This document shows, one piece after another, positions 31,486 through 55,579 of a DNA stretch of 64,000 nt; position 1 is the first letter of the stretch; each line of letters opens with the position of its first letter. The stretch is taken from contig CAMXCT020000276.1 of NCBI GenBank assembly GCA_947184155.2, positions 2,501 through 66,500 on the forward strand. The letters run 5' to 3'. Made by a program: the position numbers and the translations under genes. Source of the stretch: Cladocopium goreaui. Its lineage: Eukaryota; Sar; Dinophyceae; Suessiales; Symbiodiniaceae. The notes under the pieces were generated by a model. The model searched no databases. It worked only from the letters and a program-made list of their open reading frames with translations, and was not told the origin of the DNA.

Positions 31486-32218
31486 GAGTGGCAAGTGTAG
31501 AGTGTGGAGTGTGCAGTGTGAAGTAAGGAGTGTGGAGTGTGAAGTGTGGAGTGGGGAGTGTAGAGTGTGGAGTGAGGAGTGTAAAGTGCAAAGTGTGGAG
31601 TGTAAAGTGTAGATTGTAAAGTGTGGAGTGTAAAGTGTGGAGTGTAAAGTGTAGAGTGTGGAGTGTAGAGTGTAGCGTGTGGAGTGTGGAGTGGAAAGTG
31701 TAGAGTGTGAAGTGTGGAGTGTAAAGTATGGAGTGTAAAGTGTGGAGTGAGGAGTGTAAAGTGGAAAGCGTGGAGTGTAAAGTGTAAAGTGTGGAGTGTA
31801 TAGTGTAGAGTGTAAAGTGTAGAGTGTGGAGTGTAAAGTGTAAAGTGTGGAGTGTAAAGTGTGGAGTGAGGAGTGTAAAGTGTGGAGTGTAAAGTGTAGA
31901 GTGTGGAGTGTGGAGTGTGGAGTGAGGAGTGTAAAGTGTGGAGTGTGGAGTGTGGAGTGTAAAGTGTGGAGTGTGGAGTGTAAAGTCTCAGGTGAGGAGT
32001 GAGGAGTGTAAAGTGCAAAGTGTAAAGTGTGGAGTGTAAAGTGTAGAGTGAGGAGTGAGGAGTGAGGAGTGGAAAGTGTGGAGTGTGGAGTGTAAAGTCT
32101 CAGGTGAGGAGTGAGGAATGTAAAGTGCAAAGTGTAAAGTGTGGAGTGTAAAGTGTAGAGTGTGGAGTTTAAAGTGTAAATTGTGAAGTGTGGAGAGTAA
32201 AGTGTAGTGTGGGGAGTG
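31486..32218. repeat. Heptamer satellite (AGTGTGG/AGTGTAA)n
   Basis: About 730 bases built from a 7-bp unit, AGTGTGG alternating irregularly with AGTGTAA, plus variants such as AGTGAGG and AGTGCAA. Because 7 is not a multiple of 3, the three minus-strand frames all encode the same seven-residue repeat (TLYTPHS-like), and all three stay open. This explains the long frames of 218 and 290 codons there. No evidence of translation is visible. Confidence 0.95.
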
Positions 32219-32221
32219 CGG

Positions 32222-34515
32222 AGCTTCCCCCATAGACAGGGCGACGCCACAGGAAAACCAGAGACTCGAGACGAGACACGTGGGTGCAAAAAAATGAGCA
32301 TTTTGTGCGACACTTCCTCCAGTTTTGATATTTTCGACACGTTATCAAACAGGTTGGAATGTCACAAAGTGCCACGCCTGCCACGCAAAACGACATGACA
32401 ACCTGCTTGGACACATTCGAATAGGAGATGTTTTTCAGCTTCCCCCATAGACACGGCGACGCCGCAGGAAAACCAGCGACTCGAGACAAGACACGTGGAT
32501 GCAGAAAAATGAGCATTTCGTGCGACACTTCCTCCAGTTTTGATATTTTCGACACGTTATCAAACAGGTTGGAATGTCACAAAGCGCCACGCCTGCCACG
32601 CAAAACGTCATGACAACCTGCTTGGACACATTCGAATAGGAGAGGTTTTCCAGCTTCCCCCATGGACACGGCGACGCCACAGGAAAACCAGCGACTCGAG
32701 ATAAGACACGTGGATGCAGAAAAACCAGCATTTCGTACGAGACATCCTCCAATTTTCACAGTTGGCAACATGACAAAAGGACAAGTTTTGCAGCTTCCAC
32801 CATAGACACGGCGAGGCCACGGGAAAACCAGAGACGCGAGACGAGACAGGTGGGAGCACCAAAGCGAGCATTTCGTGCGAGACTTCCTCCAATTTTCACA
32901 CTTTGTAGCTTCAAAATCGACGTTTTCCCACGAGTTTTCCTTAGAACCGGAAAATTTGCTACCTCAAAATCGATGTTTCGTGCGAGGCTTCCGTCAATTT
33001 TCAGCACATCGCACAAAATGCCACGCCTGCCACGGAATTTGCACCTTGTCGCTACTTGACGCAGCCCTGCCAATGCGATTTACAAAAAACACGCAACAGG
33101 ACACGTCTAAAGTGCTGCGCCTGCCACGAAACATGACGATGGACACGTCCAAAGTGCTGCACGATTTTCAACACGTTGCGAAACACGTCTGAATGTCACA
33201 AAGTGCCACGCCTGCCACGCGAAACGAAGCAACGACACGTCTGAAACCTCCAAAAATGACCACCTCTGCAGAACTTCCCATAGGCACGGCCATACGGTCC
33301 TCACACGAACGGTTGCGGACGGTTGCGCTCGCGAACGCAACGTCGAGCGAACACACCCTCAACCCCCAGACCCCCAGAGTGAAACGGAAACCCTTGCTAC
33401 GCATTCGGGAAAAAACAAGCATTTCGTGCGAGACTTCCTCCAATTTTGATATTTTCCACATGTTATCAAACAGGTTGGAATGTCACAAAGTGCCACGCCT
33501 GCCACGCAAAACGACATGACAACCTGCTTGGAAACATTCGAAAAGGACATGTTTTCCAGCTTCCCCCATAGACACGGCGACGCCACAGGAAAAGCAGCGA
33601 GCCACGCCTGCCATGCAAAACAACATGACAACCTCCTTGGAAACCTTCGAAAAGGAGAGGTTTTCCAGCTTCCCCCATAGACACGGCGACGCCACAGAAA
33701 AACAAACGACTCGAGACAAGACACGTGCATGCAGAAAAAGCAGCATTTTCTGCGAGACTTCCGGCATTTTTCACAGTTGGCAACATGACAAAAAGACAAG
33801 TTTTGCAGCTTCCCCCATAGACACGGCGAGGCCACGGGAAAACCAGAGACGCGAGACGAGACAGGTGGGAGCACCACAACGAGCATTTCGTGCGAGACTT
33901 CCTCCAATTTTGACACTTTGCAGCTTCAAAATCGACGTTTTCCTACGAGTTTTCCTTAGAACCTGAAAATTTGCAACCTCAAAATCGATGTTTCGTGCGA
34001 GGCTTCCGTCAATTTTCAGCGCATCGCACAAAATGCCACGCCTGCCATGGAATTTGCACCTTGTCGCCACTTGACGCAGCCCTGCCAATGCGATTTACAA
34101 AAAACACGCAACAGGACACGTCTAAAGTGCTGCGCCTGCCACGAAAAATGACGATGGACACGTCCAAAGTGCTGCGCCTGCCACGAAAACTGCAACACAT
34201 CTTCTAAAAAAGTCACAAAAGTATTGCGCCTGCCACGCAAAACGATTTTCAACACGTTGCAAAACACGTCTGAATGTCACAAAGTGCCACGCCTGCCACG
34301 CGAAACGAAGCAACGACACGTCTGAAACCTCCAAAAATGACCACCTCTGCAAAACTTCCCATAGGCACGGCCATACGGAGTTCGTACGAACGGTTGCGGA
34401 CGGTTGCGGACGGTTGCGAACGGTTGCGGACGCGGACGCAACGTCGAGCGAACACACTCTCAACCCCCAGACCCCCAGAGTGAAACGGGAACCCTTGCTA
34501 CGCATTCGGGAAAAA
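32222..34515. repeat. Mosaic box-repeat domain (CGCCTGCCACG family)
   Basis: The domain is assembled from recurring boxes. Box 1 (GCTTCCCCCATAGACACGGC) recurs about seven times. Box 2 (TTTCGTGCGAGACTTCCTCC) recurs about nine times with variants. Box 3 has core CGCCTGCCACG, about twelve copies, usually preceded by AAAGTGC. A unit of about 214 bases is repeated at 32,226, 32,441 and 32,654. A longer unit (~620-710 bases) is repeated at 32,793-33,412 and 33,808-34,514, with about 395 bases of short units between. Both strands carry many open frames of 60-185 codons because stops are rare in the boxes; none matches a known family. It directly adjoins the heptamer satellite. Confidence 0.9.
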
Positions 34516-34639
34516 TTGCAAAACTAAGAACGAAATGAACACATGAACATATTTAACATATTCACATCATATCACCATGTTGAATCGTTGCGTTCATTGT
34601 ATTGTTTCCTCATTATCAACTCTTCAATCTGTTTCAATC

Positions 34640-34949: not shown

Positions 34950-36690
34950 CCTGCAAATGCTACTGGGTTTCTCCAGATTGGTTCCGTGGGTTCCACCCTA
35001 AAAATCACGGCAGAATGGGTTGAATTGCGGTCATGGACACCATTCAGAAATCCAAGACGGGGCAGGATGCACAGAATGTGTTTATATGATTTTATATGTG
35101 TTTATTGATTTGGAATTTGTTTGGGTTTTGTCTGTTTGGGCTATTAATAAAATTGGCCAAAGGGCCCACATGACGACCTATACAAAAGTGCCTAGAATAA
35201 GTGACTGAGGCAACTGCCACACTGCGCAAGGCCGTACTTGCAGCCACGCGGTTCCCCATGGACTGGCGAAGGTAACTTCAACATGCAACGACCAGTGACA
35301 CAGCTGGAAAATGCGGGAAAACCAGAAGACGATTTCAAATCATACCTAGACATACCTAGACTTTCTATGATTTTCGATGTTGCAGTTTGCTTAGAATGAA
35401 ATGTGCCACTGGTAAGGAATGATTTGGCCGCCCTCATACCTCGCATACCTGACCCCTCAGCCATCAGTGAACCTCACCAGAGAGTACCGACATCTTTTCG
35501 GGCCCTGGTAGTCCTAGCTGGGAATGCAGAACACCAGAGCTGGTCCAAAAATTGTATGGTGCAAACATATTATGGAAACATTTGCAACCCTGGTTGCAGA
35601 TCTCGCACTTCAAATCAGAAGCTCCTTGTGGTGTCCTTCCCCAGTTTCACATGTCGGCTTCAAGCGGCAGCAATTTTTAAAGGTGTCACAATCCTTGACC
35701 GATAAAGACACGACGGTCGAACTCCGTTCGTGGCTCTGTTGGATCCCACAATTGCGCTAGCAACTTCGATCAAGACTGTCTGCAAACAGCAATAGTCTTT
35801 CCATTGGACTCGACTGCTAGTTTTCTGTCTCTGGTCATGGGTAGTTTGAACCGCTGCAGGTCAAGTGATCCATGGTAAGATGGCAAATGGCGGATCACAC
35901 AATCACACTTGACAAAGTATCTCAGTCTGCCAAAAAAATGAACTGCTCATGTCGAAGCTGCCTTTTTGCAACTGCTGTGATAAGGAACTGCTGAGCTGCT
36001 GTCAATTGTCATCAGGGTTCACTATCGGCCAAATATGGCCTCTGGAACCTGTGGTTCTCACTGGGGAGCTCTGCAAATCGTCCTCTCTAACGTCAAAGGT
36101 GGCCTTTGGACCACACGTCGAAGAATTCTTGGCTCCATTGTGGGGCCGCGTCAATTTCATAGAATTGGGACGATTTCTCATCTGCTGAGTCCTTTTCCTG
36201 AATCTTTAACGCATACAGTACATTATACGTACGAGCGCAAGTCATTTTTTTGTAGGTTAGATAAGATCACACCAATTGCAGTCAATAGAAGAATTACACA
36301 GAATGCCACCCGGCAGGCCTCTGGATGTTCAAATCGCTCCCGTCCAGTTGCACATCATCCCGCACCTGTCAGCAGAGGCAACAAGAAACTTCCTATCCTC
36401 AGCCTCAGCTGTAGGAAGTTAGCAATTCTGAAGTGACTCATTGTCTAGATCTTCAAGGTTGGCAAGCTTCAGATCCTGGATATGCTAAGGTTTGGAAACT
36501 GACAGTGTCCGAGTTGCTGGAGAATGCTCAATCCGGAATCAATAGCGCCGCCTCCAAGGTCATCTGCTGCTTGCCCACGCTGTACAGGGTCTGGCAAAAA
36601 TGCTGTCAGCCATTCGGAGACCTGAGTCGTGCTAATGAAATCAGCGACTCGACTCGACTCGTCACTTGAACTCATGCGGTTCTTGCCCAA
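34950..36690. other. No confident gene; possible single exons
   Basis: A plus-strand segment at about 35,205-35,273 (ATATLRKAVLAATRFPMDWR) ends at AGGTAACT, a plausible donor. Plus-strand frames at 35,524-35,760 and 36,035-36,436 are open but unconvincing. Given the dynein exons just above 36,700 on the minus strand, further dynein exons were looked for here; none was recognised. Confidence 0.3.
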
Positions 36691-36699
36691 AAGTGCTGG

Positions 36700-38327
36700 G
36701 GCCCTCACGCGTTCTGAAAGCATCACCAACTGGGGAGAAAGCCAGAACCACGTACACATTTGCCTGCAAGCATATCTCCAGATGCGAACAGCTACAAAAT
36801 ATTGGAACAAATCAACGCACAAAACTGAGCAGGTTCAGAATTCTGCCGAGTTCTTCAAAACAAAGAAAGCATAAATTCCTAAGATCGAAGTCCAAGGAAA
36901 AATGCAGCTGTTACAAAACCTATTCAAAACCAAAACTCTCTAGTTTTATGATGTTTCATATTGTTTTATGATTTATGACCTGTAGCGCAAAATGAAAGTC
37001 ATCTCAGTATCCATTTTACAATCACTTGTGCACGGCTACCCTGACATGCCTGTTGACATGCAGCTCGGCAAGCTTGCACGATGGAGTCCATGTCCTCACA
37101 ACTCACTGAGGAAGCACCAGCAAATCATCTTGCAAGTTCAACCATTGAGTCCGCTACGATTCCAAGTGTGCTGTACTTAAGTTTGCCTCACATGCTTTGA
37201 CATTCAAGTAGAGGGAATGTTAATGTTTGTGTCCTCGTTCTTGTGTAGGTTGGGCACGTCGCCGGAATTCAGGACATTGTTGATGGCTTCAACCATTTGC
37301 TCGTTCACGATCCGGGTGTCTGTAAAGAGGAATGTCGTGACTTCTGCTCATTGGACATTTCATCAAGCAGGTCTTTAGGTCCTTTAGCCCATGATTTAAC
37401 TCTGTCATACAGTACCATAGCCCTTGACAACATCAATCTGGAAGATGTCATACTCGGACATGAAGCTGGCAAGACGAGAAAGAGACTGTCGACCTGATCC
37501 ACCAATTCCCAGCTAACAACGCATTGCCACTTGGTTGTCGAAGCACCCGGCACACACGCGCCACATGTTCACAGGCATCGGCGAACATGACCAAAGGCAT
37601 TGGGACACTGAACATGTTGTAGTCATCCAAGAAGCCTTCCATAATGGTCTTCATGGCACCCATACATACCCATACTGTCAACCTCCGGATAAAACGATCT
37701 CCAGAACTTTGTCGAAGATCTGCGAAGAGGCGCTCAGACTGTCGAAGACTGTAGGGTCGATCCCAGTCGCACTGAGCTGGCCACCCAACTTCCGCAGCCA
37801 CGCACGATCTTCGTCGGTGGTTAAACGGTCACCATAGACCCGCAATGACCCGCACATTTTCGTGACAGAAACACCGTGTCACAAGAGGATCTGAGACCTT
37901 CTTCGATTTCAAAGAGCAGATTCCCTGGGAGACTTTCCAGATGTCTCGCAAGTTGAAGGTGTCATGACTCTTGGAAGGAGTGGGCAACAAATCAGTTCCA
38001 GCTGCCTCAAAGGTGTCAATGGAGCAGTTTACAATGTTGTCCTGCCCAAGCACATTAGGAGAGGCTGGATTTTGATCTTTTCACAGTTGAAAGTCAGGGC
38101 TTTTGCACAAAATAATAGTTGCAGCGACACTTCAATTACAGCAAAAATGCTTGATTGTAGATTGGCATCAAGTGAAGCATGGATCAAACGCAACAGCCGG
38201 TCCTTCAAATCAATGATTGACTTTTTCGAAACCCTGCTGGAAGAAGTAGTCGAGAACGGTTGAGAAGATTCCGAAAATGGATTCCCGCGACATGTCTGAG
38301 GCCACCACTGCATTGTAGTGCCTGAGG
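36700..38327 (-). pseudogene. Dynein heavy chain fragment, AAA3 end to AAA4, with frame breaks
   Basis: Five minus-strand segments follow the order of a dynein motor. 38,221-38,327: LRHYNAVVASDMSRESIFGI, then FSTVLDYFFQQGFEK (AAA3, after the sensor region), with GT donor. 37,416-38,041: SIDTFEAAGTDLLPTPSKSH, TFNLRDIWKVSQGI, HENVRV, GDRLTTDEDRAWL, MKTIMEGFLDDYN, LVMFADACEHVARVCRVLRQ, then [20 protein letters not shown], the AAA4 P-loop. 37,225-37,340: TTFLFTDTRIVNEQMVEAIN, then NVLNSGDVPNL. 37,026-37,112: EDMDSIVQACRAACQQACQG. 36,700-36,765: ANVYVVLAFSPVGDAFRTR. These are hallmark axonemal dynein heavy chain words. The frame is broken several times (after HENVRV; near the P-loop; between GYG and DLKTCLMK), mostly by ~10-bp duplications, so this copy looks non-functional. 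The first 717 bases at high coordinate are also copy 1 of the tandem array. Confidence 0.8.
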
Positions 38328-38329
38328 CT

Positions 38330-39830
38330 GGTAACGGTAAATCCATGTACTTGTATCGGTGTCCAGCAAAGCTTCAGAAAGCAGACTTTGCGGGGTTTCA
38401 AAAAGATGGAATGTGTGTTTTAAGACAAACACAAAATAAATCATTTAGGATATTAGATCTCCTTTCTCCTTGTTGGTTTCAAAGTTTCCCAGCGATCTTT
38501 CAAGAAAATAGCGGCGGTCCACACCTCAAACTTGAAGCTCATCTCCCAGCAATGGATGACAACACCATAGAAAACTCTCCTGAAGGTCCTGCAGACCGCC
38601 CAATCCAAAATCCAAATCTCACAGACAAGAGAACACAGACCTCCCAGAATTGCCAGGCCCAAGCTCTTTGTTGCGCCGCCTGCGTCAGCTTCAACTCAAT
38701 AATTTGCAAAAAAACATCGACGATTCTTACGATGCATTCGACCCGATTCCTTCCGATTCCTTCATGTTCTTACGACTCGCTGCAATCCGATAATCCACCT
38801 TCCGGTGCACATTCTCAAACGTCTGGGGAACATCATGCTGCCAAAAGGCTCTTGCCTCAGCAAAAAATGAGACACGATGAGACACGTCCAAAACAGGCCG
38901 CAGCATCCAAACCCTGGAAACACTACCTGGAGATACATTATTAATACATTAAGTACATTGCATGCCCTGGTACAATCTTGCATCAAGTCAAATGATTCAA
39001 ATGATACTGTAAGTTCGCAGCTCTGTGCTCTTGCGGCACCCGATCACACACACGCTCCCCAACTAGGGGGAACAAGTCTTCAAGGACGAACCCTATGTAT
39101 TGCACCTCCGTCATTTTGCTGCCAGGGATTGCCAGGGCAACACACTTAGACACACTTGAGCCACGCTGACACAAACGGATAACAACCACGACTCTGCCCA
39201 GCTTGAAAATACTAGAAGAATCCCTGAAACTGTCAACCGTTTCCAAATCAATCAAGCGTGCCTGCGCATGCCAAAAAACCTTGCAGTTCATTGATCGCAA
39301 CACCCCGCTTCTTTTTCAAGCCACGGCGTTTGTTCGGAGATTGCAGACATGGCTGCGCTCCTTGAACATGGTTGCACCACGGTGTTTAGAGAAGCACCGC
39401 TGCTTCACCCAACTGACTCACTGGCGACGATATGGACATCAAAAAATCCTGGAAGGCGGTCAAAAGATCAAATTGACATAAATTGACTTTGCTGCATGCT
39501 TGATCATGTTGTATGCAACTGGTCTTGACTGTGTGATTATGTTTTTGGGTCTCTTGTCGGATTGGTTGATGGTTCTTGTGATTTCCCTCGCTGGTTGTTG
39601 TTGTCTCTTGCTGGTTCCTGTGTTCAATGTTGGCGGATACGTGTTGCATGTTGTTGAACAATGAAACCGATTCTGGGTTTGTCGTTCTTGTTGGCCAGCC
39701 TGCACCTATTCACTCTTAGTTTGATACTTTATACAGTACAGTATGTATTGTTGCAGGAAAACCCCGTCACAACCATGAAGAGCCCCATTTGTCTGGCCTC
39801 AGTCGCGGCCTCACACTCCGCAGCATCCGT
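38330..39830. other. Upper part of unit 1, probable introns
   Basis: Above the LRHYN exon no dynein words (for example the AAA3 Walker A or B regions) were found in any frame. Open frames such as 39,386-39,661 and 38,983-39,303 (minus) recur in each unit. The equivalent stretches of units 2-6 are the same. Period-10 duplications are frequent here: TCAAATGAT, TGCCAGGG, ACACACTT and AAATTGAC are each doubled. Confidence 0.4.
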
Positions 39831-39831
39831 T

Positions 39832-40191
39832 TCAGCCTGACACAGCTTTTGGACGCCCCAAGATTGCGTGGCTCGTTGCTTCAAGGAAAAAAAGCAATCC
39901 ACCAACCCAAGCCTCCTTGGGGTCAACTCTGCACCGAATCGTTTCAAACATCCAGGCGATGAACGCATAAATTGCCGCATAAAGATCTGCAAATACCTGC
40001 GCAAAAGGCATCCCAATTATGTATTGCACAGGTATTGCCTGCTCAGACCATCTGGCCAGCGGAAAGATCAGGCCTGGCAAAAGCGAGCCATAACCTGTGG
40101 TAGGCGAGCAGGACACGCACAAAGTCAACTTGCCCGCAGATTTTTTGGAAAATAAAATGATTCTGGTGGATTTGTCGCCTTTGCTCAACAC
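39832..40191 (-). other. Unassigned open frame conserved in all six units
   Basis: A 119-codon minus-strand frame includes a hydrophobic stretch (YGSLLPGLIFPLARWSEQAI, then PVQYIIGMPFAQVF). It is kept open in every unit (also at 42,818, 45,824, 48,833, 51,798 and 54,789). The plus strand is open over the same bases for 95 codons. With copies over 98% identical, openness is not evidence of selection. It may be an exon unrelated to dynein, or intron. I cannot assign it. Confidence 0.3.
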
Positions 40192-40620
40192 CGGCCTTCA
40201 AAGGTAAACAGGAGCACTTTCACCCGGGTTTTGAGCCAAACACTACTTTTCATAGTGGACAAGGGTGGCTTTGGTGGATTCACAACACATGATAGCAGAA
40301 TTGTGCACTTCCTGCCCTTGAGCAGCTTGGTACTAAGAATTCCGAAACACTCATACTGCTGATCTGGACAAAAACTTTCTTGGCCACTCTCTTTCTCTCT
40401 CTTTTTGTCTGCAAGACGTTTTCAGGAGCGCATACAGAAGAAATCAAATAGACTTTGAAATGCGTCTGAACCATTTTTGGTCTCAAAGGCCTTTGAGAGA
40501 GGCAAAGGAGTCTCCCTGTATCAAAGCACCGCACACGTTCTTGGAATCCGCTCAATTGGTGAACCTGCAATGGTGAGATCTTTGCATTTAGCACCCTCTG
40601 CCTGTGATACAGCAGGTCGG

Positions 40621-41327
40621 ACATGTTGTAGTCATCCAAGAAGCCTTCCATAATGGTCTTCATGGCACCCATACTGTCAACATCTGTCAACCTCCGGATA
40701 AAACGATCTCCAGAGGAACTTTGTCGAAGATCTGCGAAGAGGCGCTCAGACTGTAGGGTCGATCCCAGTCGCACTGAGCTGGCCACCCAACTTCCCACGC
40801 ACGCACGATCTTCGTCGGTGGTTAAACGGTCACCATAGACTGCCATAGACCCGCACATTTTCGTGACAGAAACACCGTGTCACAAGAGGATCTGAGACCT
40901 TCTTCGATTTCAAAGAGCAGATTCCCTGGGAGACTTTCCAGATGTCTCGCAAGTTGAAGGTGTCATGACTCTTGGAAGGAGTGGGCAACAAATCAGTTCC
41001 AGCTGCCTCAAAGGTGTCAATGGAGCAGTTTACAATGTTGTCCTGCCCAAGCACATTAGGAGAGGCTGGATTTTGATCTTTTCACAGTTGAAAGTCAGGG
41101 CTTTGCACAAAATAATAGTTGCAGCGACACTTCAATTACAGTAAAAATGCTTGATTGTAGATTGGCATCAAGTGAAGCATGGATCAAACGCAACAGCCGG
41201 TCCTTCAAATCAATGATTGACTTTTTCGAAACCCTGCTGGAAGAAGTAGTCGAGAATGGTTGAGAAGATTCCGAAAATGGATTCCCGCGACATGTCTGAG
41301 GCCACCACTGCATTGTAGTGCCTGAGG
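40621..41327 (-). pseudogene. Dynein AAA3-preAAA4 exons, unit 2
   Basis: Contains the LRHYNAVV exon and the LLPTPSKSHDTFNLRDIW exon as in unit 1. Type B: after HENVRVYG the frame breaks because GTCTATGG is duplicated with a CA spacer. From that point a second frame stays open down to 40,280 (192 codons). Ends at the DDYNM codon where unit 1 would continue into AAA4. Confidence 0.75.
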
Positions 41328-43606
41328 CTGGTAACGGTAAATCCATGTACTTGTATCGGTGTCCAGCAAAGCTTCAGAAAGCAGACTTTGCGGGGTTTCA
41401 AAAAGATGGAATGTGTGTTTTAAGACAAACACAAAATAAATCATTTAGGATATTAGATCTCCTTTCTCCTTGTTGGTTTCAAAGTTTCCCAGCGATCTTT
41501 CAAGAAAATAGCGGCGGTCCACACCTCAAACTTGAAGCTCATCTCCCAGCAATGGATGACAACACCATAGAAAACTCTCCTGAAGGTCCTGCAGACCGCC
41601 CAATCCAAAATCCAAATCTCACAGACAAGAGAACACAGACCTCCCAGAATTGCCAGGCCCAAGCTCTTTGTTGCGCCGCCTGCGTCAGCTTCAACAGCTT
41701 CAACTCACTAATTTGCAAAAAAACATCAACGATTCTTACGATGCATTCGACCCGATTCCTTCATGTTCTTACAACTCGCTGCAATCCGATAATCCACCTT
41801 CCGGTGCACATTCTCAAACGTCTGGGGAACATCATGCTGCCAAAAGGCTCTTGCCTCAGCAAAAAATGAGACACATCCAAAACAGGCCGCATCCAAACCC
41901 TGGAAACACTACCTGGAGATACATTATTAATACATTAAGTACATTGCATGCCCTGGTACAATCTTGCATCAAGTTGTCAAATGATTCAAATGATACTGTA
42001 AGTTCGCAGCTCTGTGCTCTTGCGGCACCCGATCACACACACGCTCCCCAACTAGGGGGAACACTTCGAAGAACCACCCTACGTATTGCACCTCCGTCAT
42101 TTTGCTGCCAGGGATTGCCAGGGCAACACACTTAGACACACTTGAGCCACGCTGACACAAACGGATAACAACCACGACTCTGCCCGGCTTGAAAATACTA
42201 GAAGAATCCCTGAAACTGTCAACCGTTTCCAAATCAATCAAGCGTGCCTGCGCATGCCAAAAAACCTTGCAGTTCATTGATCGCAACACCCCGCTTCTTT
42301 TTCAAGCCACGGCGTTTGTTCGGAGATTGCAGACATGGCTGCGCTCCTTGAACATGGTTGCACCACGGTGTTTAGAGAAGCACCGCTGCTTCACCCAACT
42401 GACTCACTGGCGACGATATGGACATCAAAAAATCCTGGAAGGCGGTCAAAAGATCAAATTGACATAAATTGACTTTGCTGCATGCTTGATCATGTTGTAT
42501 GCAACTGGTCTTGACTGTGTGATTATGTTTTTGGGTCTCTTGTCGGATTGGTTGATGGTTCTTGTGATTTCCCTCGCTGGTTGTTGTTGTCTCTTGCTGG
42601 TTCCTGTGTTCAATGTTGGCGGATACGTGTTGCATGTTGTTGAACAATGAAACCGATTCTGGGTTTGTCGTTCTTGTTGGCCAGCCTGCACCTATTCACT
42701 CTTAGTTTGATACTTTATACAGTACAGTATGTATTGTTGCAGGAAAACCCCGTCACAACCATGAAGAGCCCCATTTGTCTGGCCTCAGTCGCGGCCTCAC
42801 ACTCCGCAGCATCCGTTTCAGCCTGACACAGCTTTTGGACGCCCCAAGATTGCGTGGCTCGTTGCTTCAAGGAAAAAAAGCAATCCACCAACCCAAGCCT
42901 CCTTGGGGTCAACTCTGCACCGAATCGTTTCAAACATCCAGGCGATGAACGCATAAATTGCCGCATAAAGATGTGCAAATACCTGCGCAAAAGGCATCCC
43001 AATTATGTATTGCACAGGTATTGCCTGCTCAGACCATTTGGCCAGCGGAAAGATCAGGCCTGGCAAAAGCGAGCCATAACCTGTGGTAGGCGAGCAGGAC
43101 ACGCACAAAGTCAACTTGCCCGCAGATTTTTTGGAAAATAAAATGATTCTGGTGGATTTGTCGCCTTTGCTCAACACCGGCCTTCAAAGGTAAACAGGAG
43201 CACTTTCACCCGGGTTTTGAGCCAAACACTACTTTTCATAGTGGACAAGGGTGGCTTTGGTGGATTCACAACACATGATAGCAGAATTGTGCACTTCCTG
43301 CCCTTGAGCAACTTGGTACTAAGAATTCCGAAACACTCATACTGCTGATCTGGACAAAAACTTTCTTGGCCACTCTCTTTCTCTCTCTTTTTGTCTGCAA
43401 GACGTTTTCAGGAGCGCATACAGAAGAAATCAAATAGACTTTGAAATGCGTCTGAACCATTTCTGGTCTCAAAGGCCTTTGAGAGAGGCAAAGGAGTCTC
43501 CCTGTATCAAAGCACCGCACACGTTCTTGGAATCCGCTCAATTGGTGAACCTGCAGTGGTGAGATCTTTGCATTTAGCACCCTCTGCCTGTGATACAGCA
43601 GGTCAG
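40621..43606 (-). repeat. Array unit 2
   Basis: Type-B dynein part. Private features: CAGCTTCAA duplicated near 41,690, and the GAGACACG duplication present in other units is absent near 41,870. It has ATCCAAA duplicated near 41,605, like unit 1. Confidence 0.95.
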
Positions 43607-44313
43607 ACATGTTGTAGTCATCCAAGAAGCCTTCCATAATGGTCTTCATGGCACCCATACTGTCAACATCTGTCAACCTCCGGATAAAACGATCTCCAGA
43701 GGAACTTTGTCGAAGATCTGCGAAGAGGCGCTCAGACTGTAGGGTCGATCCCAGTCGCACTGAGCTGGCCACCCAACTTCCCACGCACGCACGATCTTCG
43801 TCGGTGGTTAAACGGTCACCATAGACTGCCATAGACCCGCACATTTTCGTGACAGAAACACCGTGTCACAAGAGGATCTGAGACCTTCTTCGATTTCAAA
43901 GAGCAGATTCCCTGGGAGACTTTCCAGATGTCTCGCAAGTTGAAGGTGTCATGACTCTTGGAAGGAGTGGGCAACAAATCAGTTCCAGCTGCCTCAAAGG
44001 TGTCAATGGAGCAGTTTACAATGTTGTCCTGCCCAAGCACATTAGGAGAGGCTGGATTTTGATCTTTTCACAGTTGAAAGTCAGGGCTTTGCACAAAATA
44101 ATAGTTGCAGCGACACTTCAATTACAGTAAAAATGCTTGATTGTAGATTGGCATCAAGTGAAGCATGGATCAAACGCAACAGCCGGTCCTTCAAATCAAT
44201 GATTGACTTTTTCGAAACCCTGCTGGAAGAAGTAGTCGAGAATGGTTGAGAAGATTCCGAAAATGGATTCCCGCGACATGTCTGAGGCCACCACTGCATT
44301 GTAGTGCCTGAGG
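43607..44313 (-). pseudogene. Dynein AAA3-preAAA4 exons, unit 3
   Basis: Same exons as unit 2 and the same type-B frame break at the HENVRVYG site. The downstream frame is open to 43,266 (192 codons). Confidence 0.75.
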
Positions 44314-46612
44314 CTGGTAACGGTAAATCCATGTACTTGTATCGGTGTCCAGCAAAGCTTCAGAAAGCAGACTTTGCGGGGTTTCAAAAAGATGGAAAGT
44401 GTGTTTTAAGACAAACACAAAATAAATCATTTAGGATATTAGATCTCCTTTCTCCTTGTTGGTTTCAAAGTTTCCCAGCGATCTTTCAAGAAAATAGCAC
44501 CAGGCGGTCCACACCTCAAACTTGAAGCTCATCTCCCAGCAATGGATGACAACACCATAGAAAACTCTCCTGAAGGTCCTGCAGACCGCCCAATCCAAAT
44601 CTCACAGATTCTCACAGACCGCAAGAGAACACAGACCTCCCAGAATTGCCAGGCCCAAGCTCTTTGTTGCGCCGCCTGCGTCAGCTTCAACTCAATAATT
44701 TGCAAAAAAACATCGACGATTCTTACGATGCATTCGACCCGATTCCTTCCGATTCCTTCATGTTCTTACGACTCGCTGCAATCCGATAATCCACCTTCCG
44801 GTGCACATTCTCAAACGTCTGGGGAACATCATGCTGCCAAAAGGCTCTTGCCTCAGCAAAAAATGAGACACGATGAGACACGTCCAAAACAGGCCGCATC
44901 CAAACCCTGGAAACACTACCTGGAGATACATTATTAATACATTAAGTACATTGCATGCCCTGGTACAATCTTGCATCAAGTTGTCAAATGATTCAAATGA
45001 TACTGTAAGTTCGCAGCTCTGTGCTCTTGCGGCACCCGATCACACACACGCTCCCCAACTAGGGGGAACACTTCGAAGAACCACCCTACGTATTGCACCT
45101 CCGTCATTTTGCTGCCAGGGATTGCCAGGGCAACACACTTAGACACGCTTGAGCCACGCTGACACAAACGGATAACAACCACGACTCTGCCCGGCTTGAA
45201 AATACTAGAAGAATCCCTGAAACTGTCAACCGTTTCCAAATCAATCAAGCGTGCCTGCGCATGCCAAAAAACCTTGCAGTTCATTGATCGCAACACCCCG
45301 CTTCTTTTTCAAGCCACGGCGTTTGTTCGGAGATTGCAGACATGGCTGCGCTCCTTGAACATGGTTGCACCACGGTGTTTAGAGAAGCACCGCTGCTTCA
45401 CCCAACTGACTCACTGGCGACGATATGGACATCAAAAAATCCTGGAAGGCGGTCAAAAGATCAAATTGACATAAATTGACTTTGCTGCATGCTTGATCAT
45501 GTTGTATGCAACTGGTCTTGACTGTGTGATTATGTTTTTGGGTCTCTTGTCGGATTGGTTGATGGTTCTTGTGATTTCCCTCGCTGGTTGTTGTTGTCTC
45601 TTGCTGGTTCCTGTGTTCAATGTTGGCGGATACGTGTTGCATGTTGTTGAACAATGAAACCGATTCTGGGTTTGTCGTTCTTGTTGCCAGCCTGCACCTA
45701 TTCACTCTTAGTTTGATACTTTATACAGTACAGTATGTATTGTTGCAGGAAAACCCCGTCACAACCATGAAGAGCCCCATTTGTCTGGCCTCAGTCGCGG
45801 CCTCACACTCCGCAGCATCCGTTTCAGCCTGACACAGCTTTTGGACGCCCCAAGATTGCGTGGCTCGTTGCTTCAACGAAAAAAAACAATCCACCAACCC
45901 AAGCCTCCTTGGGGTCAACTCTGCACCGAATCGTTTCAAACATCCAGGCGATGAACGCATAAATTGCCGCATAAAGATCTGCAAATACCTGCGCAAAAGG
46001 CATCCCAATTATGTATTGCACAGGTATTGCCTGCTCAGACCATCTGGCCAGCGGAAAGATCAGGCCTGGCAAAAGCGAGCCATAACCTGTGGTAGGCGAG
46101 CAGGACACGCACAAAGTCAACTTGCCCGCAGATTTTTTGGAAAATAAAATGATTCTGGTGGATTTGTCGCCTTTGCTCAACACCGGCCTTCAAAGGTAAA
46201 CAGGAGCACTTTCACCCGGGTTTTGAGCCAAACACTACTTTTCATAGTGGACAAGGGTGGCTTTGGTGGATTCACAACACATGATAGCAGAATTGTGCAC
46301 TTCCTGCCCTTGAGCAACTTGGTACTAAGAATTCCGAAACACTCATACTGCTGATCTGGACAAAAACTTTCTTGGCCACTCTCTTTCTCTCTCTTTTTGT
46401 CTGCAAGACGTTTTCAGGAGCGCATACAGAAGAAATCAAATAGACTTTGAAATGCGTCTGAACCATTTCTGGTCTCAAAGGCCTTTGAGAGAGGCAAAGG
46501 AGTCTCCCTGTATCAAAGCACCGCACACGTTCTTGGAATCCGCTCAATTGGTGAACCTGCAGTGGTGAGATCTTTGCATTTAGCACCCTCTGCCTGTGAT
46601 ACAGCAGGTCGG
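43607..46612 (-). repeat. Array unit 3
   Basis: Type-B dynein part. CGATTCCTTC is duplicated (shared with unit 1) and TCTCACAGA is duplicated (shared with units 4-6). It is thus a mosaic of the unit types. Confidence 0.95.
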
Positions 46613-47331
46613 ACATGTTGTAGTCATCCAAGAAGCCTTCCATAATGGTCTTCATGGCACCCATACTGTCAACATCTGTCAACCTCCGGATAAAACGATC
46701 TCCAGAGGAACTTTGTCGAAGATCTGCGAAGAGGCGCTCAGACTGTCGAAGACTGTAGGGTCGATCCCAGTCGCACTGAGCTGGCCACCCAACTTCCGCA
46801 GCCACGCACGATCTTCGTCGGTGGTTAAACGGTCACCATAGACCCGCAATGACCCGCACATTTTCGTGACAGAAACACCGTGTCACAAGAGGATCTGAGA
46901 CCTTCTTCGATTTCAAAGAGCAGATTCCCTGGGAGACTTTCCAGATGTCTCGCAAGTTGAAGGTGTCATGACTCTTGGAAGGAGTGGGCAACAAATCAGT
47001 TCCAGCTGCCTCAAAGGTGTCAATGGAGCAGTTTACAATGTTGTCCTGCCCAAGCACATTAGGAGAGGCTGGATTTTGATCTTTTCACAGTTGAAAGTCA
47101 GGGCTTTTGCACAAAATAATAGTTGCAGCGACACTTCAATTACAGCAAAAATGCTTGATTGTAGATTGGCATCAAGTGAAGCATGGATCAAACGCAACAG
47201 CCGGTCCTTCAAATCAATGATTGACTTTTTCGAAACCCTGCTGGAAGAAGTAGTCGAGAACGGTTGAGAAGATTCCGAAAATGGATTCCCGCGACATGTC
47301 TGAGGCCACCACTGCATTGTAGTGCCTGAGG
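46613..47331 (-). pseudogene. Dynein AAA3-preAAA4 exons, unit 4
   Basis: Type A, like unit 1: HENVRV is followed by a GCGGGT-CATT-GCGGGT duplication, giving a stop. After it, GDRLTTDEDRAWLRKLGG reads correctly in another frame. The ~10-bp AGACTGT duplication gives a second shift. Confidence 0.75.
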
Positions 47332-49608
47332 CTGGTAACGGTAAATCCATGTACTTGTATCGGTGTCCAGCAAAGCTTCAGAAAGCAGACTTTGCGGGGT
47401 TTCAAAAAGATGGAAAGTGTGTTTTAAGACAAACACAAAATAAATCATTTAGGATATTAGATCTCCTTTCTCCTTGTTGGTTTCAAAGTTTCCCAGCGAT
47501 CTTTCAAGAAAATAGCACCAGGCGGTCCACACCTCAAACTTGAAGCTCATCTCCCAGCAATGGATGACAACACCATAGAAAACTCTCCTGAAGGTCCTGC
47601 AGACCGCCCAATCCAAATCTCACAGATTCTCACAGACCGCAAGAGAACACAGACCTCCCAGAATTGCCAGGCCCAAGCTCTTTGTTGCGCCGCCTGCGTC
47701 AGCTTCAACTCAATAATTTGCAAAAAAACATCGACGATTCTTACGATGCATTCGACCCGATTCCTTCATGTTCTTACGACTCGCTGCAATCCGATAATCC
47801 ACCTTCCGGTGCACATTCTCAAACGTCTGGGGAACATCATGCTGCCAAAAGGCTCTTGCCTCAGCAAAAAATGAGACACGATGAGACACGTCCAAAACAG
47901 GCCGCAGCATCCAAACCCTGGAAACACTACCTGGAGATACATTATTAATACATTAAGTACATTGCATGCCCTGGTACAATCTTGCATCAAGTCAGATGAT
48001 TCAAATGATACTGTAAGTTCGCAGCTCTGTGCTCTTGCGGCACCCGATCACACACACGCTCCCCAACTAGGGGGAACACTTCGAAGAACCACCCTACGTA
48101 TTGCACCTCCGTCATTTTGCTGCCAGGGATTGCCAGGGCAACACACTTAGACACGCTTGAGCCACGCTGACACAAACGGATAACAACCACGACTCTGCCC
48201 AGCTTGAAAATACTAGAAGAATCCCTGAAACTGTCAACCGTTTCCAAATCAATCAAGCGTGCCTGCGCATGCCAAAAAACCTTGCAGTTCATTGATCGCA
48301 ACACCCCGCTTCTTTTTCAAGCCACGGCGTTTGTTCGGAGATTGCAGACATGGCTGCGCTCCTTGAACATGGTTGCACCACGGTGTTTAGAGAAGCACCG
48401 CTGCTTCACCCAACTGACTCACTGGCGACGATATGGACATCAAAAAATCCTGGAAGGCGGTCAAAAGATCAAATTGACATAAATTGACTTTGCTGCATGC
48501 TTGATCATGTTGTATGCAACTGGTCTTGACTGTGTGATTATGTTTTTGGGTCTCTTGTCGGATTGGTTGATGGTTCTTGTGATTTCCCTCGCTGGTTGTT
48601 GTTGTCTCTTGCTGGTTCCTGTGTTCAATGTTGGCGGATACGTGTTGCATGTTGTTGAACAATGAAACCGATTCTGGGTTTGTCGTTCTTGTTGGCCAGC
48701 CTGCACCTATTCACTCTTAGTTTGATACTTTATACAGTACAGTATGTATTGTTGCAGGAAAACCCCGTCACAACCATGAAGAGCCCCATTTGTCTGGCCT
48801 CAGTCGCGGCCTCACACTCCGCAGCATCCGTTTCAGCCTGACACAGCTTTTGGACGCCCCAAGATTGCGTGGCTCGTTGCTTCAAGGAAAAAAAGCAATC
48901 CACCAACCCAAGCCTCCTTGGGGTCAACTCTGCACCGAATCGTTTCAAACATCCAGGCGATGAACGCATAAATTGCCGCATAAAGATGTGCAAATACCTG
49001 CGCAAAAGGCATCCCAATTATGTATTGCACAGGTATTGCCTGCTCAGACCATTTGGCCAGCGGAAAGATCAGGCCTGGCAAAAGCGAGCCATAACCTGTG
49101 GTAGGCGAGCAGGACACGCACAAAGTCAACTTGCCCGCAGATTTTTTGGAAAATAAAATGATTCTGGTGGATTTGTCGCCTTTGCTCAACACCGGCCTTC
49201 AAAGGTAAACAGGAGCACTTTCACCCGGGTTTTGAGCCAAACACTACTTTTCATAGTGGACAAGGGTGGCTTTGGTGGATTCACAACACATGCACTTCCT
49301 CCCCTTGAGCAACTTGGTACTAAGAATTCCGAAACACTCATACTGCTGATCTGGACAAAAACTTTCTTGGCCACTCTCTTTCTCTCTCTTTTTGTCTGCA
49401 AGACGTTTTCAGGAGCGCATACAGAAGAAATCAAATAGACTTTGAAATGCGTCTGAACCATTTCTAGGTCTCAAAGGCCTTTGAGAGAGGCAAAGGAGTC
49501 TCCCTGTATCAAAGCACCGCACACGTTCTTGGAATCCGCTCAATTGGTGAACCTGCAGTGGTGAGATCTTTGCATTTAGCACCCTCTGCCTGTGATACAG
49601 CAGGTCAG
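46613..49608 (-). repeat. Array unit 4
   Basis: Type-A dynein part. It has a private 17-base deletion near 49,292 (ATAGCAGAATTGTG missing) and a GGTCTCAAAGG variant near 49,466 that breaks the otherwise shared 192-codon frame into two. Confidence 0.95.
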
Positions 49609-50315
49609 ACATGTTGTAGTCATCCAAGAAGCCTTCCATAATGGTCTTCATGGCACCCATACTGTCAACATCTGTCAACCTCCGGATAAAACGATCTCCA
49701 GAGGAACTTTGTCGAAGATCTGCGAAGAGGCGCTCAGACTGTAGGGTCGATCCCAGTCGCACTGAGCTGGCCACCCAACTTCCCACGCACGCACGATCTT
49801 CGTCGGTGGTTAAACGGTCACCATAGACTGCCATAGACCCGCACATTTTCGTGACAGAAACACCGTGTCACAAGAGGATCTGAGACCTTCTTCGATTTCA
49901 AAGAGCAGATTCCCTGGGAGACTTTCCAGATGTCTCGCAAGTTGAAGGTGTCATGACTCTTGGAAGGAGTGGGCAACAAATCAGTTCCAGCTGCCTCAAA
50001 GGTGTCAATGGAGCAGTTTACAATGTTGTCCTGCCCAAGCACATTAGGAGAGGCTGGATTTTGATCTTTTCACAGTTGAAAGTCAGGGCTTTGCACAAAA
50101 TAATAGTTGCAGCGACACTTCAATTACAGTAAAAATGCTTGATTGTAGATTGGCATCAAGTGAAGCATGGATCAAACGCAACAGCCGGTCCTTCAAATCA
50201 ATGATTGACTTTTTCGAAACCCTGCTGGAAGAAGTAGTCGAGAATGGTTGAGAAGATTCCGAAAATGGATTCCCGCGACATGTCTGAGGCCACCACTGCA
50301 TTGTAGTGCCTGAGG
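49609..50315 (-). pseudogene. Dynein AAA3-preAAA4 exons, unit 5
   Basis: Type B break at HENVRVYG. The LRHYN exon is preceded by GCAACGG rather than GTAACGG, shared only with unit 6. A 22-base stretch in the flanking intron (GTGTTTTAAGACAAACACAA) is missing, also shared only with unit 6. Confidence 0.75.
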
Positions 50316-52586
50316 CTGGCAACGGTAAATCCATGTACTTGTATCGGTGTCCAGCAAAGCTTCAGAAAGCAGACTTTGCGGGGTTTCAAAAAGATGGAAT
50401 GTGAATAAATCATTTAGGATATTAGATCTCCTTTCTCCTTGTTGGTTTCAAAGTTTCCCAGCGATCTTTCAAGAAAATAGCACCAGGCGGTCCACACCTC
50501 AAACTTGAAGCTCATCTCCCAGCAATGGATGACAACACCATAGAAAACTCTCCTGAAGGTCCTGCAGACCGCCCAATCCAAATCTCACAGATTCTCACAG
50601 ACCGCAAGAGAACACAGACCTCCCAGAATTGCCAGGCCCAAGCTCTTTGTTGCGCCGCCTGCGTCAGCTTCAACTCAATAATTTGCAAAAAAACATCGAC
50701 GATTCTTACGATGCATTCGACCCGATTCCTTCATGTTCTTACGACTCGCTGCAATCCGATAATCCACCTTCCGGTGCACATTCTCAAACGTCTGGGGAAC
50801 ATCATGCTGCCAAAAGGCTCTTGCCTCAGCAAAAAATGAGACACGATGAGACACGTCCAAAACAGGCCGCATCCAAACCCTGGAAACACTACCTGGAGAT
50901 ACATTATTAATACATTAAGTACATTGCATGCCCTGGTACAATCTTGCATCAAGTCAAATGATTCAAATGATACTGTAAGTTCGCAGCTCTGTGCTCTTGC
51001 GGCACCCGATCACACACACGCTCCCCAACTAGGGGGAACAAGTCTTCAAGGACGAACCCTACGTATTGCACCTCCGTCATTTTGCTGCCAGGGATTGCCA
51101 GGGCAACACACTTAGACACACTTGAGCCACGCTGACACAAACGGATAACAACCACGACTCTGCCCGGCTTGAAAATACTAGAAGAATCCCTGAAACTGTC
51201 AACCGTTTCCAAATCAATCAAGCGTGCCTGCGCATGCCAAAAAACCTTGCAGTTCATTGATCGCAACACCCCGCTTCTTTTTCAAGCCACGGCGTTTGTT
51301 CGGAGATTGCAGACATGGCTGCGCTCCTTGAACATGGTTGCACCACGGTGTTTAGAGAAGCACCGCTGCTTCACCCAACTGACTCACTGGCGACGATATG
51401 GACATCAAAAGATCCTGGAAGGCGGTCAAAAGATCAAATTGACATAAATTGACTTTGCTGCATGCTTGATCATGTTGTATGCAACTGGTCTTGACTGTGT
51501 GATTATGTTTTTGGGTCTCTTGTCGGATTGGTTGATGGTTCTTGTGATTTCCCTCGCTGGTTGTTGTTGTCTCTTGCTGGTTCCTGTGTTCAATGTTGGC
51601 GGATACGTGTTGCATGTTGTTGAACAATGAAACCGATTCTGGGTTTGTCGTTCTTGTTGGCCAGCCTGCACCTATTCACTCTTAGTTTGATACTTTATAC
51701 AGTACAGTATGTATTGTTGCAGGAAAACCCCGTCACAACCATGAAGAGCCCCATTTGTCTGGCCTCAGTCGCGGCCTCACACTCCGCAGCATCCGTTTCA
51801 GCCTGACACAGCTTTTGGACGCCCCAAGATTGCGTGGCTCGTTGCTTCAAGGAAAAAAAGCAATCCACCAACCCAAGCCTCCTTGGGGTCAACTCTGCAC
51901 CGAATCGTTTCAAACATCCAGGCGATGAACGCATAAATTGCCGCATAAAGATGTGCAAATACCTGCGCAAAAGGCATCCCAATTATGTATTGCACAGGTA
52001 TTGCCTGCTCAGACCATCTGGCCAGCGGAAAGATCAGGCCTGGCAAAAGCGAGCCATAACCTGTGGTAGGCGAGCAGGACACGCACAAAGTCAACTTGCC
52101 CGCAGATTTTTTGGAAAATAAAATGATTCTGGTGGATTTGTCGCCTTTGCTCAACACCGGCCTTCAAAGGTAAACAGGAGCACTTTCACCCGGGTTTTGA
52201 GCCAAACACTACTTTTCATAGTGGACAAGGGTGGCTTTGGTGGATTCACAACACATGATAGCAGAATTGTGCACTTCCTGCCCTTGAGCAACTTGGTACT
52301 AAGAATTCCGAAACACTCATACTGCTGATCTGGACAAAAACTTTCTTGGCCACTCTCTTTCTCTCTCTTTTTGTCTGCAAGACGTTTTCAGGAGCGCATA
52401 CAGAAGAAATCAAATAGACTTTGAAATGCGTCTGAACCATTTCTGGTCTCAAAGGCCTTTGAGAGAGGCAAAGGAGTCTCCCTGTATCAAAGCACCGCAC
52501 ACGTTCTTGGAATCCGCTCAATTGGTGAACCTGCAGTGGTGAGATCTTTGCATTTAGCACCCTCTGCCTGTGATACAGCAGGTCGG
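49609..52586 (-). repeat. Array unit 5
   Basis: Shortest unit (2,978 bases). Type-B lower part, with the intronic deletion shared with unit 6. Confidence 0.95.
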
Positions 52587-53304
52587 ACATGTTGTAGTCA
52601 TCCAAGAAGCCTTCCATAATGGTCTTCATGGCACCCATACTGTCAACATCTGTCAACCTCCGGATAAAACGATCTCCAGAGGAACTTTGTCGAAGATCTG
52701 CGAAGAGGCGCTCAGACTGTCGAAGACTGCAGGGTCGATCCCAGTCGCACTGAGCTGGCCACCCAACTTCCGCAGCCACGCACGATCTTCGTCGGTGGTT
52801 AAACGGTCACCATAGACCCGCAATGACCCGCACATTTTCGTGACAGAAACACCGTGTCACAAGAGGATCTGAGACCTTCTTCGATTTCAAAGAGCAGATT
52901 CCCTGGGAGACTTTCCAGATGTCTCGCAAGTTGAAGGTGTCATGACTCTTGGAAGGAGTGGGCAACAAATCAGTTCCAGCTGCCTCAAAGGTGTCAATGG
53001 AGCAGTTTACAATGTTGTCCTGCCCAAGCACATTAGGAGAGGCTGGATTTTGATCTTTTCACAGTTGAAAGTCAGGGCTTTGCACAAAATAATAGTTGCA
53101 GCGACACTTCAATTACAGTAAAAATGCTTGATTGTAGATTGGCATCAAGTGAAGCATGGATCAAACGCAACAGCCGGTCCTTCAAATCAATGATTGACTT
53201 TTTCGAAACCCTGCTGGAAGAAGTAGTCGAGAATGGTTGAGAAGATTCCGAAAATGGATTCCCGCGACATGTCTGAGGCCACCACTGCATTGTAGTGCCT
53301 GAGG
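52587..53304 (-). pseudogene. Dynein AAA3-preAAA4 exons, unit 6
   Basis: Type-A break after HENVRV, as in units 1 and 4, but combined with the GCAACGG and deletion marks of unit 5. The exon words SIDTFEAAGTDLLPTPSK and DTFNLRDIWKVSQGI are intact. Confidence 0.75.
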
Positions 53305-55579
53305 CTGGCAACGGTAAATCCATGTACTTGTATCGGTGTCCAGCAAAGCTTCAGAAAGCAGACTTTGCGGGGTTTCAAAAAGATGGAATGTGAATAAATC
53401 ATTTAGGATATTAGATCTCCTTTCTCCTTGTTGGTTTCAAAGTTTCCCAGCGATCTTTCAAGAAAATAGCACCAGGCGGTCCACACCTCAAACTTGAAGC
53501 TCATCTCCCAGCAATGGATGACAACACCATAGAAAACTCTCCTGAAGGTCCTGCAGACCGCCCAATCCAAATCTCACAGATTCTCACAGACCGCAAGAGA
53601 ACACAGACCTCCCAGAATTGCCAGGCCCAAGCTCTTTGTTGCGCCGCCTGCGTCAGCTTCAACTCACTAATTTGCAAAAAACATCAACGATTCTTACGAT
53701 GCATTCGACCCGATTCCTTCATGTTCTTACGACTCGCTGCAATCCGATAATCCACCTTCCGGTGCACATTCTCAAACGTCTGGGGAACATCATGCTGCCA
53801 AAAGGCTCTTGCCTCAGCAAAAAATGAGACACGATGAGACACGTCCAAAACAGGCCGCAGCATCCAAACCCTGGAAACACTACCTGGAGATACATTATTA
53901 ATACATTAAGTACATTGCATGCCCTGGTACAATCTTGCATCAAGTCAAATGATTCAAATGATACTGTAAGTTCGCAGCTCTGTGCTCTTGCGGCACCCGA
54001 TCACACACACGCTCCCCAACTAGGGGGAACAAGTCTTCAAGGACGAACCCTACGTATTGCACCTCCGTCATTTTGCTGCCAGGGATTGCCAGGGCAACAC
54101 ACTTAGACACACTTGAGCCACGCTGACACAAACGGATAACAACCACGACTCTGCCCGGCTTGAAAATACTAGAAGAATCCCTGAAACTGTCAACCGTTTC
54201 CAAATCAATCAAGCGTGCCTGCGCATGCCAAAAAACCTTGCAGTTCATTGATCGCAACACCCCGCTTCTTTTTCAAGCCACGGCGTTTGTTCGGAGATTG
54301 CAGACATGGCTGCGCTCCTTGAACATGGTTGCACCACGGTGTTTAGAGAAGCACCGCTGCTTCACCCAACTGACTCACTGGCGACGATATGGACATCAAA
54401 AGATCCTGGAAGGCGGTCAAAAGATCAAATTGACATAAATTGACTTTGCTGCATGCTTGATCATGTTGTATGCAACTGGTCTTGACTGTGTGATTCTGTT
54501 TTTGGGTCTCTTGTCGGATTGGTTGATGGTTCTTGTGATTTCCCTCGCTGGTTGTTGTTGTCTCTTGCTGGTTCCTGTGTTCAATGTTGGCGGATACGTG
54601 TTGCATGTTGTTGAACAATGAAACCGATTCTGGGTTTGTCGTTCTTGTTGGCCAGCCTGCACCTATTCACTCTTAGTTTGATACTTTATACAGTACAGTA
54701 TGTATTGTTGCAGGAAAACCCCGTCACAACCATGAAGAGCCCCATTTGTCTGGCCTCAGTCGCGGCCTCACACTCCGCAGCATCCGTTTCAGCCTGACAC
54801 AGCTTTTGGACGCCCCAAGATTGCGTGGCTCGTTGCTTCAAGGAAAAAAGGCAACCCACCAACCCAAGCCTCCTTGTGGTCAACTCTGCACCGAATCGTT
54901 TCAAACATCCAGGCGATGAACGCATAAATTGCCGCATAAAGATGTGCAAATACCTGCGCAAAAGGCATCCCAATTATGTATTGCACAGGTATTGCCTGCT
55001 CAGACCATTTGGCCAGCGGAAAGATCAGGCCTGGCAAAAGCGAGCCATAACCTGTGGTAGGCGAGCAGGACACGCACAAAGTCAACTTGCCCGCAGACTT
55101 TTTGGAAAATAAAATGATTCTGGTGGATTTGTCGCCTTTGCTCAACACCGGCCTTCAAAGGTAAACAGGAGCACTTTCACCCGGGTTTTGAGCCAAACAC
55201 TACTTTTCATAGTGGACAAGGGTGGCTTTGGTGGATTCACAACACATGATAGCAGAATTGTGCACTTCCTGCCCTTGAGCAACTTGGTACTAAGAATTCC
55301 GAAACACTCATACTGCTGATCTGGACAAAAACTTTCTTGGCCACTCTCTTTCTCTCTCTTTTTGTCTGCAAGACGTTTTCAGGAGCGCATACAGAAGAAA
55401 TCAAATAGACTTTGAAATGCGTCTGAACCATTTCTGGTCTCAAAGGCCTTTGAGAGAGGCAAAGGAGTCTCCCTGTATCAAAGCACCGCACACGTTCTTG
55501 GAATCCGCTCAATTGGTGAACCTGCAATGGTGAGATCTTTGCATTTAGCACCCTCTGCCTGTGATACAGCAGGTCAGAC
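52587..55579 (-). repeat. Array unit 6 (upper edge of array)
   Basis: This would be the first unit transcribed if the minus strand is used. Its upper edge at 55,579 passes into unrelated sequence (CTCCCAAAGCATGG). Private changes cluster at 54,495 and 54,850-54,880. Confidence 0.95.

Follow-up and report, generated by a model that had tools for sequence, protein, structure and literature searches.

Can a dynein heavy chain gene carry one segment of its motor six times over and still work? This question is raised by a stretch of 64,000 nucleotides of the dinoflagellate Cladocopium goreaui (contig CAMXCT020000276.1, hereafter C276, positions 2501-66500; G+C 46.6%), which we refer to as the window and in which a preliminary description placed, at 37611..55579, a six-fold array of segments cut out of such a gene. 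We have compared the array with itself and with the genome assembly (1.166 Gb in 6,202 contigs). The array is very probably a truncated dynein pseudogene, multiplied by tandem duplication and unequal exchange, from which no motor protein would be made. The unit comparison revealed, in addition, a class of small insertions, an 8-bp direct duplication around the dinucleotide AT, which recurs elsewhere in the genome.

By self-BLAST and alignment, positions 37612-55579 are filled by six head-to-tail units of 2,978-3,009 bp each. The six units of about 3 kb with sharp common borders are therefore real features of the assembled sequence; the end of the array is where it had been placed, and its start lies one base later, at 37612. 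All 15 unit pairs are 98.83-99.60% identical (ungapped positions only), with 12-35 substitutions per pair. The units are:

37612..40620, minus strand: array unit 1 (3009 bp), last in minus-strand order, the sole unit continuing into AAA4
40621..43606, minus strand: array unit 2 (2986 bp)
43607..46612, minus strand: array unit 3 (3006 bp)
46613..49608, minus strand: array unit 4 (2996 bp)
49609..52586, minus strand: array unit 5 (2978 bp)
52587..55579, minus strand: array unit 6 (2993 bp), first in minus-strand order

The five inner junctions have the same sequence except for one base (...GACTACAACATGT joined to C(C/T)GACCTGCTG...), while the two outer edges of the array lead into different sequence (...ACATGTTCAGTG... 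and ...GGGAGTCTGACCTG...). Head-to-tail copies, common borders and different sequence outside are the marks of a tandem segmental duplication.

The minus strand of each unit carries two dynein exons, termed A and B, which begin at the end of AAA3 and stop just short of AAA4, as had been proposed. A single copy of the stretch occurs on another contig (C5833:411479-415165), with 72-91% DNA identity over the aligned blocks, and serves as the reference for the dynein part of unit 1 and its continuation:

38222..38323, minus strand: exon A of unit 1 (RHYNAVVASDMSRESIFGIFST...), end of AAA3; the reading frame is disrupted in every unit (tblastx to C5833 and alignment)
37612..38046, minus strand: exon B of unit 1 (DNIVNCSIDTFEAAGTDLLPTPSKSH ... 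DDYN), covering the AAA3-AAA4 lid region; no unit has its frame intact (AAA_lid_1, PDB dyneins, alignment)
37207..37611, minus strand: continuation of exon B into AAA4, present once, with a frame break at the P-loop (AAA_8 on three covering pieces)
36551..37206, minus strand: last colinear dynein pieces (blastn/tblastx), beyond which there is no match to later C5833 sequence

A Pfam scan of ten translated pieces gave, above the cut-off, AAA_lid_1 on exon B (the LLPTPSKSH exon; E 1e-4) and AAA_8, the dynein D4 region, on three pieces at or beyond the border of unit 1 (E 1.1e-7, 5.6e-9 and 2.1e-10); a second lid family, DYN_lid, stayed below the cut-off on exon B. Exon A (the LRHYN exon) alone had no Pfam match and was placed by its protein identity to the C5833 relative (tblastx over 34 residues: 94% in units 2, 3, 5 and 6, and 91% in units 1 and 4). 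With exon B as the query, a PDB search returned 53 sequences up to E 1, mostly named dynein heavy chains; the best match, DNAH1 (1.1e-10), hints at a dynein of the inner-arm type. The recognisable AAA3/AAA4 motor sequence supports the dynein heavy chain identity suggested earlier.

The C5833 copy answers, in part, the proposal to look for an intact paralogue. It is a candidate, called open only where it was read, over exon B (411761-412435). AAA_7 matches lie before exon B on C5833, as well as three AAA_8 matches, one of them scored across a TGA that is probably an exon end. When 16.5 kb of C5833 (403001 to 419500) were compared with C276:1-156500 (156.5 of 275.3 kb), the homology was limited to window 38324-36551 and its repeats, bar a 65-bp match near C276:155.4 kb; neither the C5833 AAA3 exons before 411479 nor 415165-419500 had a counterpart in that part of C276. 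An intron of ~1.6 kb in C5833 (C5833:412372-414012) is missing from the window copy, in which the two exon parts adjoin directly (window 37430-37450). By eye, the same short direct repeat, GTAT, stands at both edges of this intron, and it may have been gained as an introner or been cleanly lost. Just before the dynein exons, C5833:408508-410064 is an open frame of ~500 amino acids that resembles, by eye, part of a reverse transcriptase polyprotein. Elsewhere in the genome, on contig C1852 (stretches L022/L052), dynein AAA_7 and AAA_8 matches occur within one open frame of 3,785 amino acids, a long intron-free stretch.

In every unit, exons A and B are still separated by an intron. One intron appears to start with GA, a donor that is allowed for in dinoflagellate gene prediction according to an excerpt of PMC8045281. 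A retrocopy (processed pseudogene) would have lost all of its introns, and we reject this origin because the A-B intron is retained.

Compared with C5833, exons A and B both bear frame-breaking length changes, and these are common to all six units. Only unit 1 runs on into AAA4, as described; this single-copy part suffers a further frame break at the P-loop itself. There is no open reading frame over the motor exons, the exons that should adjoin them in a dynein heavy chain gene (AAA1-AAA3 before, the stalk and AAA5 after) were not found within C276:1-156500, and each inner junction interrupts a coding exon midway and continues into sequence that matches no dynein. Being common to all units, the frame breaks preceded the copying; together with the C5833 frame, open over exon B, they indicate that the dynein piece was dead before it multiplied.

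Several observations weigh against such a dead piece. Silent differences from C5833 outnumber replacing ones in two clean stretches (8 to 3 over 153 bp, 9 to 5 over 84 bp), as they do in a third stretch that crosses the P-loop break (13 to 9). The silent excess in the two clean stretches points to past selection. The 153-bp stretch, in exon B, is identical in all six units, which is about as expected from their low divergence; like the silent excess, this fits a recently dead gene and also a used one. Earlier dynein exons could lie in the remaining 118.8 of the 275.3 kb of C276. A working gene with a multiplied motor segment, or with the segment serving as alternative exons, would further account for the protein conservation of exons A and B and for the intron kept between them; it is nonetheless very improbable, given the same frame breaks in six units, junctions that fall in mid-exon and no adjoining dynein exons within the 156.5 kb examined. 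The functional gene with an internally multiplied motor that the preliminary description had considered is not supported, given the shared frame breaks and the truncation within the 156.5 kb, and we reject the functional reading, as judged from sequence, with high confidence. The array is an ordinary gene relic that changes nothing about dyneins.

We infer the absence of function, and also the order of events and the mechanism of the first join, which may be pictured as follows. A dynein heavy chain fragment, from the end of AAA3 through AAA4, would have lost its frame and its outer exons; next, a 3-kb stretch made up of ~0.7 kb of this fragment and ~2.3 kb of upstream DNA would have been duplicated head to tail. 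In the founding join, the upstream border would have been attached midway in exon B via a 2-bp overlap, GT, and such a two-letter overlap suggests end joining or template switching. Later copies would have formed by unequal exchange between units, shuffling the unit differences too. Exchange of this kind predicts difference patterns that cut across each other, and such patterns are seen amongst the 51 gap-free two-state columns of the unit alignment: 11 set unit 1 apart from the rest (some being two different insertions aligned on each other, columns 55-63), seven divide units 1, 4 and 6 from 2, 3 and 5, and two divide units 1, 3 and 5 from 2, 4 and 6. The units also differ in length at 19 listed places, one a mere alignment end, which leaves 18; some of these changes are private to one unit, and plain tandem duplications are also found (e.g., alignment rows 1088 and 1154).

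Units that are ~99% alike might also be produced by an assembler that stretched one or two real copies to six, and the assembly does include near-identical contig pairs (C224 and C781, possibly duplicates of each other, with 99.97 and 99.94% identity over their dynein stretches, L030/L031 and L038/L039). This explanation is improbable in view of the 12-35 substitutions per pair and the 18 length changes, as changes private to one unit do not come from copying one sequence. It could also be proposed that the array has been retained because of a non-coding role, as a transcribed repeat or structural satellite in which the dynein letters are incidental, since about three quarters of each unit have no dynein match and the units have been kept alike. 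In unit 1, this part is:

38325..40620, no strand: non-dynein part of unit 1 (~2.3 kb), matching no dynein; where searched, closely copied only within the array

However, close copies of the two searched stretches are confined to the array, save on C4878 and, on the dynein side, on C5833, C6162 and C78: positions 38330-40000 have no close copy in the genome outside the array except a 100-bp match (79%) at C4878, and, of the 11 matches to 40000-41500, seven fall within the array, C5833 accounts for one (74%), and the remaining three, all weak, are on the other two contigs. Recent tandem copies are, moreover, alike without any need for selection, and we give a non-coding role as little credence as a working gene. 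Three open reading frames (ORFs) from the non-dynein part, one of which crosses the border between units 1 and 2, had no Pfam match. Upstream of the array, two overlapping ORFs of 442 and 319 amino acids (window 58117-60244, minus strand) likewise gave no Pfam match.

Tandem amplification such as that proposed for the array is an ordinary process in dinoflagellates, and the dynein array itself belongs to a known kind: tandemly duplicated exons, genes and pseudogenes are described in the excerpts seen of PMC8045281, PMC10522408 and PMC11453091. Our literature search yielded, among the matches listed, no report of such a dinoflagellate dynein heavy chain array. Like the duplicates in those excerpts, the units are head-to-tail, slightly differing copies in a very large, pseudogene-rich genome; the duplicates described there are mostly whole genes, whereas the array unit is a truncated piece, mostly outside the gene and dead in all copies. 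With an axonemal dynein heavy chain (DNAH1), the array shares the sequence of the AAA3-AAA4 lid and of the start of AAA4; it differs in having neither a complete motor nor an open frame, with one segment in six copies.

The array had also been recommended as a good record of local mutation, and it proved to be one: six related copies and a single-copy relative let some of the insertions be polarised. Several insertions of 10 bp that differ between units consist of an 8-bp direct duplication around AT (N8-AT-N8), to be called scars here. Exact scars occur at seven unit sites, two of them in all six units, while five vary between units that are ~99% alike; none has a strand assigned:

37658..37675: N8-AT-N8 scar in unit 1 only; C5833 without the duplication
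40674..40691 (in unit 2): N8-AT-N8 scar in units 2-6; C5833 without the duplication
37837..37854: N8-AT-N8 scar shared by units 1, 4 and 6; C5833 without the duplication
44600..44617 (in unit 3): N8-AT-N8 scar in units 3-6; close by, units 1 and 2 are set apart by changes of other kinds
38869..38886: N8-AT-N8 scar in units 1 and 3-6, missing from unit 2
39120..39137 (in unit 1): N8-AT-N8 scar in all six units
39470..39487 (in unit 1): N8-AT-N8 scar in all six units

At 37837..37854, units 2, 3 and 5 hold a different 8-bp duplication, with CA, also absent from C5833; the sites at 44600..44617 and 38869..38886 lie outside the C5833-homologous part. Scars are not the sole length change, most of the 19 listed unit differences being of other kinds.

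The same form is abundant outside the array. In 152,241 bases of C276 and C5833, a sample from which array units 2-6 and the minisatellite at 31301-34600 were left out, we counted 100 period-10 repeats with exactly 8 matching bases, versus 2.2 in Markov shuffles; the spacer is AT in 77 of the 100. The run length for period 10 peaks at 8, as expected of a target duplication of fixed length. Simple slippage of a 10-bp tandem repeat predicts at least 10 matching bases and no fixed spacer, and it is rejected on both counts. Among the 110 exact 8-bp repeats 2 bp apart in a larger sample (225,182 bases in 40 stretches, with a low-complexity filter), 89 have AT as the spacer, and at least one scar is present in 24 of these stretches; owing to overlaps and near-copies among a few stretches, the 89 sites comprise 88 distinct ones, and two satellite stretches, L017 and L018, were left out. 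Positions 1-31300 of the window have the AT spacer in 26 of 34 such repeats. Periods 6 and 7 are also rich in 8-base runs, mostly satellite repeats in L017 and L018. In 50 kb of Escherichia coli, there was no such repeat with any spacer, a weak control with under one expected by chance. The density corresponds to ~460,000 exact scars genome-wide, a figure that gives the order of magnitude only, as the sample is not random.

The 88 duplicated sites display a weak symmetric preference, with 1.55 bits compared to at most 0.81 in 1,000 random sets; the symmetry was reached by 2 of the 1,000, in a test without the two columns forced by the choice of sites and with a small bias, as the random sets were not complexity-filtered like the sites. 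The pattern nTnnnnAn, a target preference of the hAT type, fits 18 of the 88 scars versus a background of 7.5%. Once triple scars are set aside (20 of 100 rows at 12 bp), repeats that frame longer AT...AT inserts were not clearly in excess. Of six near-identical contig pairs, two are nearly without differences, and no exact N8-AT-N8 difference was seen in three others.

Some repeats in these stretches merit mention by themselves. Short arrays of a 10-bp unit at window 8486-8514, 18876-18923 and 27319-27397 can be read as N8-AT three to eight times, and look as if a scar had re-formed at the same site. L017 and L018 (C276:136501-156500) are a satellite of GGATTAG-like repeats, and window 31480-34515 holds minisatellites, namely a 21/28-bp array and clustered repeats 109 to 215 bp long.

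Fixed length, a nearly fixed spacer and the symmetric preference lead us to read the scars as putative footprints of a transposase-like activity, whose enzyme would leave one base of each element end. A donor screen for 8-bp duplications with inverted ends found 41 pairs, many of them being members of a TCCATGGA inverted-repeat cluster, AT-rich repeats or parts of the array itself. One perfect case, C276:127846-133395 (the L016-L017 region), is an element of 5,550 bp with a target duplication of 8 bp; its 15-bp inverted ends, ATCCCCCGTGGTACC, are identical. Its end begins ATCCCCC and has 24 exact matches in the genome, versus three for the reversed control. The ATCCCCCGTGGTACC-ended family comprises three pairs (on C276, C979 and C1227), with the 8-bp duplication in all three, and 18 single ends, the partners of which were sought only within the retrieved stretches. 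As the element ends are A...T, its excision would leave the AT spacer. This family is a possible donor, a lead to follow, and its few copies fall far short of accounting for the scars by themselves; indeed, hundreds of scars beside so few elements argue against an ordinary, long-lived transposon as the source. Tentatively, we suggest that duplications of 8 bp around a fixed AT arise very often in this genome, perhaps to this day, through a transposase-like cutter acting 8 bp apart that would either remove its element almost at once or leave none; the five sites that vary between the dynein units would then show the process at work.

If the scars are transposase footprints, they offer a direct handle on the gain of small insertions and on gene loss in dinoflagellate genomes. 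If the 8-bp-plus-AT process is as frequent as suggested, it would rank among the chief sources of both small insertions and gene death in these algae, and could bear on the origin of dinoflagellate introns. A literature search, in which few subscription journals were covered, showed no description of N8-AT-N8 scars among the matches listed.

Two known systems invite comparison. Introner duplications, as given in excerpts of PMC9860276 and PMC7789003, measure 4 bp in Symbiodinium microadriaticum, 3-5 nt in Amoebophrya, 8 bp in Aureococcus and 3-9 bp generally. Introners, so described, resemble the scars as small DNA elements with target duplications in dinoflagellates; the scars differ in their 8 bp, with only AT between and no element. 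On the same grounds, the scars do not fit the Symbiodinium-type introner, a spliced-out element within a 4-bp target duplication. The hAT and P transposons make 8-bp target duplications and leave footprints upon excision. Although the scars depart from these footprints in their nearly constant AT spacer, their very high number and the want of a matching number of elements, they share with them the 8-bp duplication, the few bases in between and the symmetric target preference.

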